From a virus, in IMG/VR virus record IMGVR_UViG_3300046170_000064, positions 1 to 31,782 of that record: a DNA stretch of 31,782 bases. One strand, written 5' to 3'. Of the stretch, positions 1,666 to 9,263 are shown piece after piece (the first letter of the stretch is position 1; each line of letters opens with the position of its first letter). The notes under the pieces are model-generated. The model ran no database searches, had not been told where the DNA came from, and saw only the letters and a list, made by a program, of their open reading frames with translations. The position numbers and the translations under genes are program-made.

Positions 1666-1864
1666 CTTTGGCTTTATTGTACAAATTTAGGTAAAATTCC
1701 CAGATAATATTCTGGTATTCTTTTTTAGGGTAAATTTTTCCAGAGGTTTCTGTTTTACCATCTCTCTCTAAAATAAGAACAAATCCCTTATCTTTTATTT
1801 TAGGGTAAATTCTTATCTCGTTTTCCGTTGCCCATTTAAAGGCGTCATAATGTTGGTCTGTCAT
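1658..1864 (-). CDS. Hypothetical protein (68 aa)
   Basis: This small charged protein is rich in Lys, Glu and aromatic residues (for example KWATENEIRIYPKIKDKG) with no signal peptide or membrane segment. Its ATG overlaps the stop of the primase-helicase gene in a TAATG arrangement, so it is translated as part of the replication-packaging operon. I do not recognise the family. Confidence 0.7.
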   Translation of the reverse strand: MTDQHYDAFKWATENEIRIYPKIKDKGFVLILERDGKTETSGKIYPKKEYQNIIWEFYLNLYNKAKDD

Positions 1865-3537
1865 TAAAAAGGTAGTTTATCGTTAATACTGGTGAGTCTT
1901 TGTTTTTCTTTGTCTATAGAGCAGTAGTGTCCGCCATTCTTAAAGTCTGGAGCTACCATAAAAGAGCCTTGCTGTCCGTTTTCTTTACGCTTAACTTTTT
2001 GTACATGGATTTCTACAGCGTCAGTTCCAAACTTTGTTATCTCGCCTAATTTTCTATAAACCGTTAAGCAGTTATAAGCCTTATTAAAGAAGTCACTAGA
2101 GCCAGATATATCGTATGGAGTTGGCACTTTATAAGCCTCGCCATTGACTTCCATTTTTCTAGGGTGAGCTATTAAAAATAAATGCGTATTTGTTTGCTGT
2201 ACAAATTGGGTAATTTGTGAAAGCATAGCACCTATGTAGCTGTGGTCTCTTTGTGCTGAATGGTCTAACATATTCCAAGGGTCAATTACTAAAATATTTA
2301 CTCCCTTTTGAAATACAAGCTCTTTAAACTTATCTAGTATAGACTTAAGAGTTAAGTTTTCTAGGTCAATCTTTATAAAGTAAAAATTATCTTCTATAAA
2401 ATTTTTAGTATTATTTAAATCCTCGTTAGAACAATTTTTTTTATTTAGTTTATTTGCTATCCTTTTAATATGTCCCTCATAAGGAAAGGATTCTGGAGCA
2501 AAGAAAGCAGTCCTAAAATTATATTTTAAAGCTAAATTAGTAGCAATCTGGTCAAATACGTCCGATTTACCAGCGTTTGGTATTCCAGTAACTACCGACC
2601 ACTCGCCAAAAGAAACATTAAAAAATGAGTCTGAGTCGCTTAGTCCGATTGAATAATTTTTAACGCCTTTTTCATTATATAATAAAACATTGTCCCAAAT
2701 ATCACTTATGTTAATCACTCCATCCAAAGGAAACGTTTTAGCGCCGTTTAAAATATTGCGTAGTGTCTCAGCACCTTTAGCAATTAAAACCTCGTTAGCG
2801 TCTTTGTATTCGTTAAAATCTACATACTTACAGCGGTACTTTCCAATTCTTCTAGCTAATTCGTTTCGAAGATTTAAACCAGCGTCATCATTGTCTGTAC
2901 ATAAAATAATTTCTTTTTTATCTTCAAAGTAATTAAAACAGTTATCTAAATAATCTAGCCTTTGGTTCCCTTTAGAAGCTCCATTAGGAACAGAAACAAC
3001 TGAATAAAGACCAGCCTCAAATAAACTTAAAGCGTCCATTTCGCCCTCAACTATATAAGCCCTATCTGAATTTTTAATATTATCTAAACCATAAAATACA
3101 AGCTCAGCTCCAGAAACCATTTTAAAGTTTTTTTCTGCATCTCTATATTTTACATTTATTAAATCATTATCTCTATAATAATTAAAATTAATTGCCTTTC
3201 TGTTTTTTGAAATCTGAGGGAAATATTCTTGGCTTTCAGTTATTTTCCAATTAACTACGGTCGCCTCAGAAATACCTCTTTTCTGAAACCAGCTTAAAGT
3301 ACGGTCTCCTAATTTAGATTTTACTACAACTGGCTTAACATATTCTTTTTTTGGTTTGAATTTTACATTCCCACCCCAGCCGCAGTTATGGCAGTTATAA
3401 AGACCCTCTTGGATATTTACACTGAGGCAAAGGTCTTTTTTATTTCTTCTAGTATGTGAGCATTTTGGGCATTTTGTTTTTTGGTTGTTAGCGTTAGATT
3501 TAAGCTCTATTCCTAACGCTAGAAATTCTGTTATCAT
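1864..3537 (-). CDS. Bifunctional DNA primase-helicase (T7 gp4/Twinkle type)
   Basis: This 557-residue protein should unwind phage DNA and lay primers at the fork. An N-terminal zinc finger has Cys at 23, 26, 49 and 52 (CPKC and CHNC). A Toprim domain follows, with VEGEMDA at 163-169 and TDNDDAG at 214-220. The C-terminal half is a RecA-like DnaB-family helicase with Walker A GIPNAGKS at 318-325 and Walker B ILVIDPWN at 415-422, then LIAHPRK. The last residues are NDKLPF, resembling the SSB C-terminal tail. The start overlaps the upstream nuclease-like gene by an ATGA. Confidence 0.93.
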   Translation of the reverse strand: MITEFLALGIELKSNANNQKTKCPKCSHTRRNKKDLCLSVNIQEGLYNCHNCGWGGNVKFKPKKEYVKPVVVKSKLGDRTLSWFQKRGISEATVVNWKITESQEYFPQISKNRKAINFNYYRDNDLINVKYRDAEKNFKMVSGAELVFYGLDNIKNSDRAYIVEGEMDALSLFEAGLYSVVSVPNGASKGNQRLDYLDNCFNYFEDKKEIILCTDNDDAGLNLRNELARRIGKYRCKYVDFNEYKDANEVLIAKGAETLRNILNGAKTFPLDGVINISDIWDNVLLYNEKGVKNYSIGLSDSDSFFNVSFGEWSVVTGIPNAGKSDVFDQIATNLALKYNFRTAFFAPESFPYEGHIKRIANKLNKKNCSNEDLNNTKNFIEDNFYFIKIDLENLTLKSILDKFKELVFQKGVNILVIDPWNMLDHSAQRDHSYIGAMLSQITQFVQQTNTHLFLIAHPRKMEVNGEAYKVPTPYDISGSSDFFNKAYNCLTVYRKLGEITKFGTDAVEIHVQKVKRKENGQQGSFMVAPDFKNGGHYCSIDKEKQRLTSINDKLPF

Positions 3538-3926
3538 AAAGATTTTTTTAGTTTGGTTATTTTATAATGGTCGGCTAATTTATGTAAACATTCTTTTAGG
3601 TTTTGATTTCTTTTATAATTTACGCCTCCAGAATATATTCTATGAACAGTTGTATTTTCCATAGAAACAATCTCTTGAGGGTCTGTTTCATGCTCGCAGT
3701 ATAAAACAAAAGCGTTACCGTTGGTTTTTTCCCAACAATCGGCGAGCCTTTTTAATACAAGCTCTTGACCTATAGAATTAGAAACGCCTTTTAATTTTAT
3801 TTCAAATAGGATTAAAAATTTATTGTCAAATTCTAAAACAGCGTCTATATCTGTAGGGTGAATTTTTGAATTACCTACGCCTCTAAAGTCTAAAACTTGC
3901 TTTATTCTTTTTTCGTGTTTTATCAT
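3534..3926 (-). CDS. PD-(D/E)XK nuclease-like protein
   Basis: This 130-residue protein has the core pattern of the PD-(D/E)XK nuclease fold: TDIDAVLEF around residues 25-33, then LILFEIKLKG at 38-47, giving Asp-28, Glu-42 and Lys-44 as candidate catalytic residues. It sits between the replication initiator and the primase-helicase with ATGA overlaps on both sides, so a role in replication-intermediate or junction processing is plausible. Which subfamily it belongs to cannot be settled by eye. Confidence 0.7.
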   Translation of the reverse strand: MIKHEKRIKQVLDFRGVGNSKIHPTDIDAVLEFDNKFLILFEIKLKGVSNSIGQELVLKRLADCWEKTNGNAFVLYCEHETDPQEIVSMENTTVHRIYSGGVNYKRNQNLKECLHKLADHYKITKLKKSL

Positions 3927-4591
3927 TTTGTAATTTGTTTGAAATCTTTGTCTGCGAAATTATTTAAAAACCTATCTAATTTTCTAACGCCATTTTTAGA
4001 AAGCCTAAGAGTTGTAATTGAGAAAAAATTTTTATTCCAGAATTCGTCTTTGCGAACTTTAGCAAGTAAATAATAAAGCTGTCTTGGATTTATATTGTCT
4101 ACAGTATCGCAAAGTCTAATAATATCCAGCCAGTCTTTTTTTTGTTTTTCGTTTTTAGGTCTGTTTCTCTCTGGAAATAATTCTACAATATGATTATAAG
4201 ACTTTAAAATTTGTTCGCTGAAAGCGTTGTTACTATTATTATTTATATTATTATTATTAGTATATATATTATCCTTATCATTTTTGAGTATAGGGTATAC
4301 TTTATTTTGAGTATAGGTATGCACAAAAATGAAACGCTTCTCTACTTGTTTATTTTTATTTCTTATAAGCTTAGTTTTTATAAAGCCATTTTTTTCTAGC
4401 TCAGAAATCCATCTGGAAATAGTTCCTTTTGATACATTATAAAGCTCAGCGAAATATAAATTTTGCGCAAAACATTTGCCGCTTTTATTAGTTAAGGCGC
4501 TAATTTCAGCATATAATATTTTCGCATTAGGCGTCAAAGTGTCCGAGTACCTTACCTCTGCTGGTAAGATAGCGTAATAGTTTGGTTTCAT
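3923..4591 (-). CDS. Helix-turn-helix replication initiator-like protein
   Basis: This 222-residue protein resembles phage replication proteins of the lambda O/DnaD kind. A winged-helix N-terminus (about residues 1-90) contains PAEVRYSDTLTPNAKILYAE and a recognition region with NVSKGTISRWISELEKNG. An Asn-rich linker (NNNNINNNSNN) follows, then a helical C-terminal domain that may contact the helicase. I prefer the ATG at 4591 to the one at 4633 because it lies 5 bases after the upstream stop, while the longer form overlaps that gene. The DNA for the linker holds an AT-rich tract next to a direct repeat, listed separately as a possible origin. Confidence 0.75.
   Translation of the reverse strand: MKPNYYAILPAEVRYSDTLTPNAKILYAEISALTNKSGKCFAQNLYFAELYNVSKGTISRWISELEKNGFIKTKLIRNKNKQVEKRFIFVHTYTQNKVYPILKNDKDNIYTNNNNINNNSNNAFSEQILKSYNHIVELFPERNRPKNEKQKKDWLDIIRLCDTVDNINPRQLYYLLAKVRKDEFWNKNFFSITTLRLSKNGVRKLDRFLNNFADKDFKQITK
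4230..4317. other. Candidate phage replication origin (two iterons plus AT-rich tract)
   Basis: Inside the initiator gene the 13-base sequence TTTTGAGTATAGG occurs at 4282-4294 and 4305-4317, spaced 23 bases start to start, about two helical turns. Beside it, 4230-4272 is almost pure A/T with AAT trinucleotide repeats. The two copies are read in different codon phases, so the repeat is conserved as DNA rather than as protein. Iterons beside an AT-rich segment within the initiator gene is the layout of the lambda origin. Function is inferred. Confidence 0.5.
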
Positions 4592-4596
4592 TTTAA

Positions 4597-4851
4597 TTAA
4601 GTGTTGTCTACTAATTTTTTTATATGGTCGCAAAATGTTCGAATGTCTCCGAATATCCTAGCAAAAGCATCTAAAGAAATATTATTTTCCTCGTAGAGTT
4701 CAAATAAAGTTTCGATTAAAAGCTCATACTCTGCCAGAGTCATAGTGCCGACATACTCGTAACTTACATTCTGCTCTACAGCTGTCGTATTAGTGCGCCA
4801 CGCCTTTTGGCTTAACTCATTATAAAAAACTTTTTTGTAATCGCTATACAT
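4597..4851 (-). CDS. Hypothetical protein (84 aa)
   Basis: This is a small acidic, mostly helical protein with a C-terminal stretch LFELYEENNISLDAFARIFG and no membrane segment. It overlaps the DnaA/VRR-NUC gene by 8 bases and ends 5 bases before the preferred initiator start, so it belongs to the replication operon. I do not recognise the family. Confidence 0.7.
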   Translation of the reverse strand: MYSDYKKVFYNELSQKAWRTNTTAVEQNVSYEYVGTMTLAEYELLIETLFELYEENNISLDAFARIFGDIRTFCDHIKKLVDNT

Positions 4852-5509
4852 TTAAATCAATTCTTTTATCAAAATAATTATCTATAACCTCTTTGGCTTT
4901 GTCAAAAGAACTACACCAGTGAGCGCTCCAGTTTCCATCCTCAAGCATTTTAAGGCATTCTAATTGACTTTCTGTTGGCTTGTTATATCCGACCTTCAAT
5001 TCTATAGCTAAACCGCTAAAACCGCCTCTATTTTCAAAACATAGTACATCTGGTATTCCAGACTTACCGCCTAAATATTTAAACTTAAAGCGTTCAAAAG
5101 GAGTTCTGCGCCCTTCATTGGGTACATGAATAGTCAAAACTTTAGGATGTTGTAGACTAATGTAGCTCATAACAGCATTTTGAAGCTTGTCTTCTTTTCC
5201 TAGAAATTTTTCAAAGTTGTTACCGCTCAATTGTGAAAATTTATCTTCTAAATTATAAAATTTATCTCTAAAGTCTTGGTCATAAAGTAAAAATTCTTTA
5301 GCTCGCCTAATAGAATGTAGAACGCTAGTATGGTCTCTGTCTATTTCTTTAGCTATAGTTGCTAGAGAGAGTTTTGTATGTTTTCTAAGAATGTAACAAA
5401 AAAGATGCCGACCCTCTACTAAATCTCTACGCCTTGACTTTGTGTTTATTTTACCGCCTATTTCAGCTTCAACTAATCTTCTGATGTGTATTGGTTTTAG
5501 TGTAATCAT
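4844..5509 (-). CDS. DnaA domain IV - VRR-NUC nuclease fusion protein
   Basis: This 221-residue protein joins two recognisable parts. Residues about 1-95 look like the DNA-binding domain IV of DnaA: basic SRRRDLVEGR at 25-34, TKLSLATIAKEI at 45-56, and RDHTSVLHSIRRA at 58-70, close to the DnaA signature RDHTTVLHA. Residues about 105-221 look like a VRR-NUC (PD-(D/E)XK) nuclease: NEGRR at 131-135, LGGKSGIPD at 146-154, LAIELK at 167-172 and a Gln at 182. The DnaA ATPase domain is absent. It overlaps the exonuclease gene by ATGA. It may place a nuclease at specific DNA sites; this is inference. Confidence 0.85.
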   Translation of the reverse strand: MITLKPIHIRRLVEAEIGGKINTKSRRRDLVEGRHLFCYILRKHTKLSLATIAKEIDRDHTSVLHSIRRAKEFLLYDQDFRDKFYNLEDKFSQLSGNNFEKFLGKEDKLQNAVMSYISLQHPKVLTIHVPNEGRRTPFERFKFKYLGGKSGIPDVLCFENRGGFSGLAIELKVGYNKPTESQLECLKMLEDGNWSAHWCSSFDKAKEVIDNYFDKRIDLNV

Positions 5510-6273
5510 AATATTATAGAACCGTCTTTATTTAATTCATCGCTGTAAAATCCAAGAGCCTCTCCAGTATCTAAGTAATGTTTCCACTCCCTTAAAGCCT
5601 TTTCGTATTTATATCGTCCCCTAGAAATTTGGTCTTCATTTAAAGAATAAACGCCATTATCGAAAGGGTAAGTATTTCTAATTGCTATAAATCTAAAATG
5701 CTTTGGGTCATATCCTAAGCAATCAGAATAAAAACAAGCTTGTAAATCGTAATTTCTAAAATTAACCTCTCTCTTAAAATCAAATTTATTAGGCTCTCTA
5801 GTTGTTTTAATATCTGAAATCCAAGTATCAGAATGGCAGTCTGGTCTTACTCTAACTGGTACGCCTTCAAACTCTAAATAATGAGACTGCTCTATTATAC
5901 CAGTTGCATAATGTACAGCTAATTTATTTTTTAAAAAGTTGTCTAATATCCAGAAGAGGTCTCGACCTTGTTGAGAGTCAAAAACAACTCTATCTTTTGC
6001 TATTTTTAAATGTTCTGCTTTTACCTCTTTGCCAGCTTTAGTTCTTAAGTCTAGTTTAGGCATAAAATAATAACGCCGAAGAAATTCTTTTTTACCCTCT
6101 TGCAGTAAATCATGTACAGCGGTACCAAAACGCATAGCGTCTGTCTCTTTATTTTTTCTGGTTAATTTATAGTTAACTGACTGGCTAAATATATCTTTTA
6201 AACCAGAGGCGGAAATATCTTTACTAGAATGATAAACCGCATTAGATTCAAATACTTTTTTCATCTTTGACAT
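5506..6273 (-). CDS. RecE-like exonuclease (PD-(D/E)XK, exodeoxyribonuclease VIII type)
   Basis: This 255-residue protein probably resects double-stranded DNA ends to feed the ERF annealing protein encoded upstream. Visible motifs are SASGLKDIF near residue 21, MRFGTAVHDLL at 47-57, and the catalytic strand pair VRVRPDC (Asp-145) and WISDIKTT (Asp-154, Lys-156). A glutamine-containing NYDLQACFYSD helix follows. The order fits phage exonucleases of the RecE C-terminal family. Its start overlaps the 79-residue coiled-coil gene by 26 bases; Met-4 is an alternative start. Confidence 0.88.
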   Translation of the reverse strand: MSKMKKVFESNAVYHSSKDISASGLKDIFSQSVNYKLTRKNKETDAMRFGTAVHDLLQEGKKEFLRRYYFMPKLDLRTKAGKEVKAEHLKIAKDRVVFDSQQGRDLFWILDNFLKNKLAVHYATGIIEQSHYLEFEGVPVRVRPDCHSDTWISDIKTTREPNKFDFKREVNFRNYDLQACFYSDCLGYDPKHFRFIAIRNTYPFDNGVYSLNEDQISRGRYKYEKALREWKHYLDTGEALGFYSDELNKDGSIIL

Positions 6274-6537: not shown

Positions 6538-6792
6538 TTAAAAAGGTAAGTCGTCGTTTGCCTTAGCACTTGGAGGAGTTACTGGTTTAGTTTGAACTGG
6601 TTGCATTTCTGAAATTAGTCCGCCTAAATATTTTTTACCAGTTGACTTAGCCTCATTAACCCATGCGGATATTCTAAACTGCTTGCCTTTTTCGTCTGTC
6701 ATTGTACCAGAATAGTCTGGCTGCTTGTCCTCTGTTTTTTGTTCGTTTTTAAATAAACTAAAGGAGTTTGGTTTTTGTTCGTATGTACTCAT
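6538..6792 (-). CDS. Single-strand DNA binding-like protein with DDLPF tail
   Basis: The 84-residue product ends in NDDLPF, the acidic tip that bacterial SSB proteins use to recruit repair enzymes. The middle (YSGTMTDEKGKQFRISAWVN) looks like a short beta-rich strand set, smaller than a full OB fold. It sits directly after the ERF annealing gene with an ATGA overlap and before the exonuclease, so a single-strand DNA role fits. Identity as a true SSB is not certain because of its size. Confidence 0.65.
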   Translation of the reverse strand: MSTYEQKPNSFSLFKNEQKTEDKQPDYSGTMTDEKGKQFRISAWVNEAKSTGKKYLGGLISEMQPVQTKPVTPPSAKANDDLPF

Positions 6793-7211
6793 AATTCGAA
6801 ATTTTTATTATTATTATTAGATTTAATTGGTTTATTAATTTGTCGGCTAACTGTTGTATTAGCGTCGTCGTCTTCAGCCTCAAGCCCTAAAAGAGCCAGC
6901 AAGCCATAACGTCTATAATAGGTTATCTCTGAGCCACGCTCTTGAGGTTTTACAGATTGTATTGCCAAACCTTCTGGCTTATCTGGAAAAATACTCCCAG
7001 TATCAGAGTCTATTATTAAAGTAAGTACTTCATTTTTTATAATAGGCTGACTTAAAAATAACTTCTCACTTTTTAAAATTGGTTTTATAACTCTTAAAAT
7101 TGAGTTAATATCAGTGTAGTAGCTTTTATAAAAAGGGTTTGATTTATCTTTTTTTATAGCTTCTACTTTATGGAAGACGTTAAACATCTTTTTCGCTAAA
7201 TCTGGCGTCAT
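6789..7211 (-). CDS. erf: ERF-family single-strand annealing protein
   Basis: This 140-residue recombinase should anneal complementary single strands. Family features are visible in order: VEAIKKDKSNPFYKSYYTDI near residues 12-31, SILRVIKPIL near 32-41, GSEITYYRRYGLLALLGL near 92-109, and EDDDAN just after. An Asn-rich tail (NNNNKNFEL) ends the protein, which is shorter than P22 Erf. With the RecE-like exonuclease and SSB-like protein it forms a complete exonuclease-annealase set. Its start overlaps the Cro-like gene by 32 bases. Confidence 0.88.
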   Translation of the reverse strand: MTPDLAKKMFNVFHKVEAIKKDKSNPFYKSYYTDINSILRVIKPILKSEKLFLSQPIIKNEVLTLIIDSDTGSIFPDKPEGLAIQSVKPQERGSEITYYRRYGLLALLGLEAEDDDANTTVSRQINKPIKSNNNNKNFEL

Positions 7212-8012: not shown

Positions 8013-9263
8013 TTACTCGTATTTTATTTTAAAAGTTGAGGCTAAGTCGTCGTCTTGGTTTGGAATATGGCTTACAATATTGTAAGTATTACCCTTGACG
8101 TTGTAACTCATCGAGTCAATATAACCGCTAACGTTTTCAGTTAAAGTATTATTAGCAAAATTAAACCATATTTTATTATGAAGTGCCACTGGTATTGGGT
8201 CGGTGTTATTGTTAAAAAACTCACCCTCGTAGCGTTTAACAAATTCTCTGTAATCGTTAATGATTTCTTGAGTTATAAATGAATCTAAAGTACCAGTATT
8301 ATTAGTATCTATTAGACGCTCAAAAGTGCCATCAAACCCTCCATCAAATAAACTATCTCCTAACTCATTAGATAGTATCAAGTCTTCTGTTTCATGTATT
8401 CCAGTAATCGTATTAGAAGAATCTGAAGTTCTTTCTACTAAAAACTTATTAGATTCGTCCCAGATTTGGTCAATAAAAAAATTGTCTATGTAATAAACAG
8501 TATGACCATTAAAAGCAGTTGAGTTTCTATAATTAGGCTGGCTTATTGAAACGGTTATATTAGCATTTTCTGCATCTATTTCAGTTATTGCGTTTAATTC
8601 TGCGCTGACGTTATTCCAAACGTTTTTATTAGTGTCTTTAAATAATTTATAATGTTTTTTGTCTGGCGTACTGTCTTCATCAAACTCATTAGATTTAAAA
8701 TCATAATAAAATATTTTAGAATCCGCTTCTAATTTTACCCTTATTGCAAAATAATAATCTAAGTCACTACCAGAAACTGTATTTTCTATATAATAACTAA
8801 AGCCTATTTGGTATTTATTTCCAACCCTAACGGTTGTTAAACTTCCGAGATTTTCTATTGAAACTTGGCTAGAGGTTGCGTCTATATTACCAGAATCAGT
8901 TTCAGCATATAACCCTTTTATAAGTCTTTCACCGCTTAAAGATTTTGAATTAGTTTCAACTATAGCTCTAGTCAAACCATTATTAAAAAAATCCATTCTA
9001 TAACCGCCATAATTACTCATTGGGTCATTGTTGACTATATTTATTTTTTTTAATACAGTTTCTCTAATAACTTTTTTAACTGGTCTTAAATATTCGACTG
9101 TTAAAGACTGTTTAATAGGTCTTAAAATAACTGGAGCTTTTAGTAGTACGTCTTGCTCATAGGTATCTATAAAAGTGCCATCCTTATCGTATACATTATA
9201 ATCTATCAACTCCTTTCCAGTAGTCGTTAAAAGTGCTTTCTGTGCTGTTGTTCTAATTCCCAT
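8013..9263 (-). CDS. Tail-tip/host-interaction protein, C-terminal piece
   Basis: The 416-residue product is last in the tail block. Residues about 90-290 look beta-rich, as in a jelly-roll or carbohydrate-binding module (IGFSYYIENTVSG, VYYIDNFFIDQIW). The C-terminus (LHNKIWFNFANNTLTENVSG, then YIDSMSYNVKGNTYNI) has the look of the end of a baseplate-hub protein. Its ATG is in the same frame as the gene upstream, separated by one TAA and one codon, so it may be the last third of one long tail-tip protein. The function is inferred from position. Confidence 0.65.
   Translation of the reverse strand: MGIRTTAQKALLTTTGKELIDYNVYDKDGTFIDTYEQDVLLKAPVILRPIKQSLTVEYLRPVKKVIRETVLKKINIVNNDPMSNYGGYRMDFFNNGLTRAIVETNSKSLSGERLIKGLYAETDSGNIDATSSQVSIENLGSLTTVRVGNKYQIGFSYYIENTVSGSDLDYYFAIRVKLEADSKIFYYDFKSNEFDEDSTPDKKHYKLFKDTNKNVWNNVSAELNAITEIDAENANITVSISQPNYRNSTAFNGHTVYYIDNFFIDQIWDESNKFLVERTSDSSNTITGIHETEDLILSNELGDSLFDGGFDGTFERLIDTNNTGTLDSFITQEIINDYREFVKRYEGEFFNNNTDPIPVALHNKIWFNFANNTLTENVSGYIDSMSYNVKGNTYNIVSHIPNQDDDLASTFKIKYE

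Follow-up and report, generated by a model that had tools for sequence, protein, structure and literature searches.

VRR-NUC nucleases are structure-selective rather than sequence-specific where tested, because psNUC, a dimer, cleaves four-way junctions symmetrically and leaves linear duplex uncut (PMC4103454) and the VRR-NUC toxin TseV3 acts preferentially on splayed arms, which are similar to forks and bubbles (PMC9635880). For Holliday-junction resolvases, guidance is normally provided by the shape of the DNA and not by its sequence. The initiator DnaA contacts bases through residue 399 and residues 432-435 (PMC5043019). A DnaA domain IV-like reader is also present in GafA and GafY, which are fused to their partner in one species and split from it in another, the split halves occurring in a complex (PMC9632790, PMC9638019).

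Here, we analysed a 31.8-kb IMG/VR record of a marine phage (the window, i.e. the whole stretch of DNA under analysis), which carries a gene coupling a DnaA domain IV-like module to a VRR-NUC nuclease. The affiliation of the window to Bacteroidota phages was taken solely from its terminase and primase matches. Our preferred explanation, to which we assign a probability of about 0.5, is that the product of this gene is a junction resolvase or branch nuclease of a RecE/Erf/SSB module, tethered to particular sites by a DnaA-type reader. The gene and its parts, with the basis of each assignment, are the following:

4844-5509, minus strand: DnaA-IV/VRR-NUC fusion gene, 221 amino acids, ATG start
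5225-5509, minus strand: DnaA domain IV-like N-terminal domain, residues 1-95 (Pfam, profile, Foldseek)
5303-5452, minus strand: Pfam core of the DnaA-like domain, residues 20-69 (Bac_DnaA_C)
5432-5434, minus strand: R26, equivalent to E. coli DnaA R399, the minor-groove arginine (1j1v alignment; invariant)
5408-5410, minus strand: R34, equivalent to E. coli DnaA R407 (1j1v alignment; invariant)
5330-5332, minus strand: H60, equivalent to E. coli DnaA H434, in the recognition helix (1j1v alignment; invariant)
5198-5224, minus strand: linker, residues 96-104 (lower AF2 confidence, blocks of pLDDT 63-76 around residues 91-110)
4868-5197, minus strand: VRR-NUC nuclease domain, residues 105-214 (Pfam, 4qbl profile match, Foldseek)
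5192-5194, minus strand: E106, first catalytic acid of E-PD-EXK (aligned to the E of 4qbl 'EDEVQ'; invariant)
5048-5050, minus strand: D154, PD motif (aligned to the PD of 4qbl; invariant)
4994-5002, minus strand: E170-L171-K172, EXK motif (aligned to the EIK of 4qbl; invariant)
4964-4966, minus strand: Q182, VRR-NUC signature glutamine (invariant; role of the equivalent Q in psNUC/stNUC: PMC4103454)

A sequence-only reading of this locus had described a single gene with a DnaA domain IV and a VRR-NUC nuclease, and this architecture is borne out by Pfam, by a family profile compared with the PDB and by AF2 combined with Foldseek. The structure-prediction check which that reading had proposed for both halves returned the DnaA domain IV fold for the N-terminus and the VRR-NUC fold for the C-terminus. 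The AF2 model of the fusion protein (pLDDT 84.5, pTM 0.55) consists of two well-predicted domains and the less certain linker. An ATPase domain is absent, as had been stated, since Pfam finds no AAA+ family in the fusion protein, and the DnaA model TIGR00362 scores 47.6 bits against a cut-off of 343.9, with a match in the C-terminal part only. The earlier residue calls were right (RDHTSVLHS at R58-S66, NEGRR at N131-R135, GIPD at G151-D154, IELK at I169-K172), as was the naming of K172 as the EXK lysine; its list of nuclease motifs stands as far as it went, but the first catalytic acid, E106 in the motif 'EDKLQ', had been overlooked. Both halves of the gene are under purifying selection, with a weaker constraint on the DnaA-like half (dN/dS about 0.06-0.30) than on the nuclease half (about 0.03-0.14). 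Screening with PADLOC for known anti-phage defence gave no family match for the fusion protein at E<=0.1.

Within the N-terminal half, Bac_DnaA_C (PF08299) matches residues 20-69 with E=1.2e-13 and 51.3 bits (Pfam cut-off 31.5), and a profile of 21 fused homologues matches 1j1v, the structure of DnaA domain IV with DnaA-box DNA, at 5e-9. Foldseek superposes the AF2 model on 3pvp and 1j1v with TM-scores of 0.90 and 0.88, respectively (normalised by target), at 1.3 A. In the 1j1v alignment, residues 22-88 of the query correspond to chain residues 22-89, of which residue 1 is, as we assume, residue 374 of E. coli DnaA. Read in this way, the equivalents of the DNA-contacting R399, D433, H434 and T435 are all present in the window protein as R26, D59, H60 and T61, next to S62 for T436 and to R34 for R407, which we presume to be a DNA-contact residue in DnaA as well. 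Among 21 divergent N-domains with a mean identity of 32%, R26, R34 and H60 are the only invariant positions, and they are invariant too in the alignment of the 21 fused homologues. Because the DnaA contact residues are conserved, the N-terminal half is likely to read DNA. The equivalent of D433 drifts among relatives between D, N, H and G and that of T435 between T, A, S and C, so that the specificity of this half has probably drifted as well.

The evidence for the nuclease half is of the same kind. VRR_NUC (PF08774) matches residues 132-201 with E=5.5e-5 and 23.6 bits, just below the Pfam cut-off of 23.8, whereas the profile of the 21 fused homologues matches the VRR-NUC structure 4qbl at 4e-15 over residues 105-214 and Foldseek aligns the AF2 model to 4qbl with E=2.5e-6 and a TM-score of 0.71 by target. 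The E-PD-EXK site with its signature glutamine is intact, E106, D154, E170, K172 and Q182 being invariant in the 21 fused homologues. The nearest solved and characterised nuclease to this half is psNUC (4qbl).

The fusion gene is embedded in an early operon whose order is common to the relatives and reads, in names taken from PHROGs and Pfam, repressor, Erf annealase, in some cases SSB, exonuclease, the DnaA domain where present, VRR-NUC, an 84-residue protein, initiator, primase/helicase and terminase. In the window, the following neighbours were identified:

6789-7211, minus strand: Erf single-strand annealing protein (PF04404, 5.2e-23; phrog_2324, 7e-31)
6538-6792, minus strand: SSB-like gene (phrog_18154, 6e-9)
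5506-6273, minus strand: RecE/exonuclease VIII-like gene (phrog_412, 3.5e-51; PF12684, 4e-15; syntenic in relatives)
4597-4851, minus strand: gene for an 84-residue protein, without Pfam or PHROG match
3923-4633, minus strand: replication initiation protein, HTH_36, O/DnaD-like (phrog_19658, 7e-24; PF13730, 5e-13)
1864-3537, minus strand: primase-helicase (phrog_239, 5.8e-86)

The RecE-like gene and the fusion gene overlap by 4 nt. As it stands, the operon is a recombination-dependent replication module that is complete but for a resolvase, a role which the VRR-NUC would fill. Some further observations were made on this region. In nearly every locus, also where the DnaA domain is missing, the 84-residue gene follows the nuclease gene directly on its 3' side, and it accompanies the nuclease more constantly than the DnaA domain does. 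Positions 3534-3926 encode a 130-residue protein without family match, whose homologue at L090:5582-5974 contains DIDAVLEF...LFEIKLKG and looks like another PD-(D/E)XK nuclease. A 416-residue ORF (8013-9263), flanked by the early operon and the tape-measure gene, has no Pfam match (E<=0.01) and no PHROG match (E<=0.001).

The sequence-only reading had suggested that the nuclease is aimed at DnaA boxes, either nicking at the phage origin or attacking host initiation sites. The motif TTWTNCACA, expected 3.3 times, does not occur in the window; in six contigs of close relatives it occurs one to three times each, eight times in total, against eight for the reversed control pattern, and over the 81 loci the DnaA box TTATNCACA was found 53 times against an expected 51.9. 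DnaA boxes are thus neither enriched nor depleted in these phage genomes. Together with the inability of psNUC to cut linear duplex, these chance-level counts leave a nuclease aimed at DnaA boxes unsupported, as do several lineages that keep the nuclease without a DnaA domain.

A role as replication initiator or as nickase at DnaA boxes of the phage origin is very unlikely. The fusion gene does precede the replication initiation gene by two genes, yet the latter encodes a dedicated HTH_36/O-like initiator and is accompanied by a primase-helicase, the boxes are missing from the window and at chance numbers in the relatives, and the VRR-NUC enzymes tested recognise structure rather than sequence. 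Moreover, the initiator gene itself often contains iterons, one set of which in the window marks a candidate origin:

4230-4332: candidate origin within the gene for the initiator, with AT-rich repeats of 21 nt, then two copies of TTTTGAGTATAGG and a near-copy in inverted orientation

The two copies of TTTTGAGTATAGG lie at 4282-4294 and 4305-4317, at a spacing of 23 nt. A codon-shuffle test with 60 shuffles (p=0.016, its lower limit) detected direct repeats within the gene in 26 of 57 initiator genes, in phages with and without the DnaA domain alike, and those of the relatives are similar in kind and unrelated in sequence, i.e. family-specific. Such in-gene repeats suggest that the phages have an origin of their own inside the initiator gene; the lambda origin lies inside gene O. 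Nicking of the phage origin by way of DnaA boxes, as had been proposed, is disfavoured by this initiator-like gene with its frequent internal iterons, which is present whether or not there is a DnaA domain.

An attack on the host would take another form. In such a take-over, the DnaA-like half would guide a nuclease specific for DNA structure to the host oriC or to another site bound by DnaA. There the nuclease would cleave the initiation complex, which is opened and branched, and so arrest host replication. The near-canonical recognition residues of the window protein (R26, D59, H60 and T61), the preference of TseV3 for splayed arms that resemble forks and bubbles (PMC9635880) and the phage genomes without a cluster of DnaA boxes are in line with it. 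However, boxes at chance level and not depleted in the phages give no sign of self-avoidance, among relatives the equivalents of D433 and T435 have drifted, to N/H/G and A/S/C, the domain is unattached to the nuclease in many sister phages and the gene sits within a recombination operon, which together make this reading improbable. In its more specific version, a site-addressed, structure-specific nuclease whose reader brings a resolvase to initiation complexes opened at the host oriC or other DnaA-bound sites and thereby has branched DNA cut at a defined address, we hold it to be a little more improbable still; if true, phages would be stopping the replication of their host by means of a part borrowed from its initiator.

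To get insight into the occurrence of the fusion, the window and the best 80 of 126 IMG/VR stretches encoding a relative were compared. A survey for the same fusion elsewhere had been proposed, and it does recur: 41 of the 81 loci, the window included, carry the fused gene; in 30 the two domains are encoded by neighbouring genes, again in this order, and in 10 the nuclease occurs alone. These counts are biased, and the constancy of the partner is inflated, by a search for relatives that was mostly nuclease-led. An assembly artefact was rejected, the fusion being one ORF in 41 of 81 contigs. A single-sequence search with the N-domain retrieved four close fused relatives only, and a PF08299 search of whole records gave exactly one match in 26 of 33 and none in the nuclease-only records. 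On the nuclease tree, parsimony places eight changes among the three states, of which well-supported branches force at least two for the fused and at least three for the absent state; because of these several changes, the fused and neighbouring states appear to interconvert. The nuclease-only genes L052:5893-6363 and L058:5893-6363 group with the fused clade and retain a linker-like piece (LLKEICITKLNNLANPF) before the nuclease, and so appear to have cleanly lost their DnaA part within that clade. The DnaA domain is also absent in L064-L069. Among the loci with adjacent genes, the split DnaA_C proteins L018:2146-2553, L034:5974-6408 and L055:5983-6399 have in common a C-terminal motif of the type HPxxxR...SLRxxLxxR, which is not seen in the fused forms and is perhaps an interaction tail. 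A search of genome contigs for prophage or host relatives yielded two matches, both in MAG contigs. L082 and L083 encode nuclease relatives and were binned into MAGs labelled Gammaproteobacteria and Woesearchaeota; both resemble contigs of phages, and the host may be another than the bin labels indicate. INPHARED phages gave no match covering 80% of the fusion protein.

This mobility of the DnaA part bears on the main rival explanation, in which the DnaA-like half is an autonomous transcriptional or copy-control regulator of the early operon that became fused by adjacency and leaves the nuclease undirected. GafY and GafA, as DnaA domain IV homologues in phage-derived elements, are promoter-binding activators (PMC9632790, PMC9638019) and likewise come in a fused or a split form, depending on the species; Flavobacterium, Olleya and Pelagibacter phages have stand-alone DnaA_C genes in their early regions and no VRR-NUC with them; and the DnaA-like domain evolves faster than the nuclease and can be lost. 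Against such a regulator, no partner other than this nuclease is seen, always next to the domain and in constant order, over more than one fusion or fission event, although the nuclease-led sampling inflates this constancy, and the fusion family keeps the equivalents of R399, R407 and H434 without exception while GafA has E8 for R399. We regard an autonomous regulator as possible, but as less probable than a tethered resolvase.

Under our preferred reading of a tethered resolvase, the product of the fusion gene would be the nuclease that processes branches in the RecE/Erf/SSB recombination module, most likely as a dimeric Holliday-junction resolvase. Its nuclease half would cut the branched DNA arising from recombination-dependent replication. 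The DnaA-like half would read duplex DNA in the manner of DnaA, with an arginine in the minor groove and a helix-turn-helix in the major groove, and as such could tether the resolvase to particular sites, which may lie on phage DNA more probably than at canonical clusters of DnaA boxes. In sister phages, the separate neighbouring parts may act as a complex. Some observations argue against tethering: no binding site was found, there being no enrichment of boxes and no apparent cluster of 10-mers (at least three copies in 350 bp, one mismatch) at a common place in the window and its close relatives L001, L003 and L090; the DnaA part is dispensable, given its apparent loss in L052/L058 and its absence from L064-L069; and cultured phages carry stand-alone DnaA_C proteins without adjoining VRR-NUC, so that the domain has nuclease-independent uses. 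The recurrent fusion nevertheless suggests that some phages aim a resolvase-type enzyme at chosen sites. Alternatively, the DnaA reader is a phage DNA-binding module which is used more widely than the gene transfer agent case shows.

In comparison with known systems, neither part is new, and no characterisation of their combination was found in the literature searched; the earlier statement that it is not known as a characterised system stands for these papers. The fusion is already present in BFVD as the unnamed entry A0A516L0Z0 (218 amino acids), a full-length structural match with 43% identity over 215 columns, of which, as far as found, the literature searched holds no description. The short DnaA_C proteins of Flavobacterium phage tooticki (gp026), Olleya phage Harreka_1 (gp24) and Pelagibacter phage Skadi-4 (gp30) are encoded in early regions as well, a few kb at most from genes of the RecE or annealase type in the case of Harreka_1 and Skadi-4, but have no VRR-NUC fused or adjoining in the annotated regions shown.

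The nuclease half resembles psNUC (4qbl; Pennell et al. 2014, PMC4103454), a small phage-type VRR-NUC, in its E-PD-EXK site with glutamine, at about 30% identity and a TM-score of 0.71. However, psNUC stands alone whereas the fusion protein has a DNA-reading domain, and the junction cleavage and dimer of psNUC were seen biochemically whereas the fusion protein is compared by sequence and predicted monomer structure. The N-terminal half shares with DnaA domain IV (1j1v, 3pvp) the fold (TM about 0.9, 1.3 A), the helix-turn-helix signature and the equivalents of R399, R407 and H434; it differs from DnaA in lacking the AAA+ domain III and domains I-II, in the replacement of T436 by S and of P423 by A, and in occurring in phages without DnaA-box clusters. 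GafY and GafA, the gene transfer agent activators of Caulobacter and Rhodobacter, resemble the fusion in that a DnaA domain IV-like reader is re-used by a phage-like element, fused to or split from its partner. Their architecture is nonetheless another one, since the partner of GafA is sigma-like and interacts with RNA polymerase whereas that of the fusion family is a VRR-NUC, and the position of R399, which is E8 in GafA, is an arginine in the fusion family.
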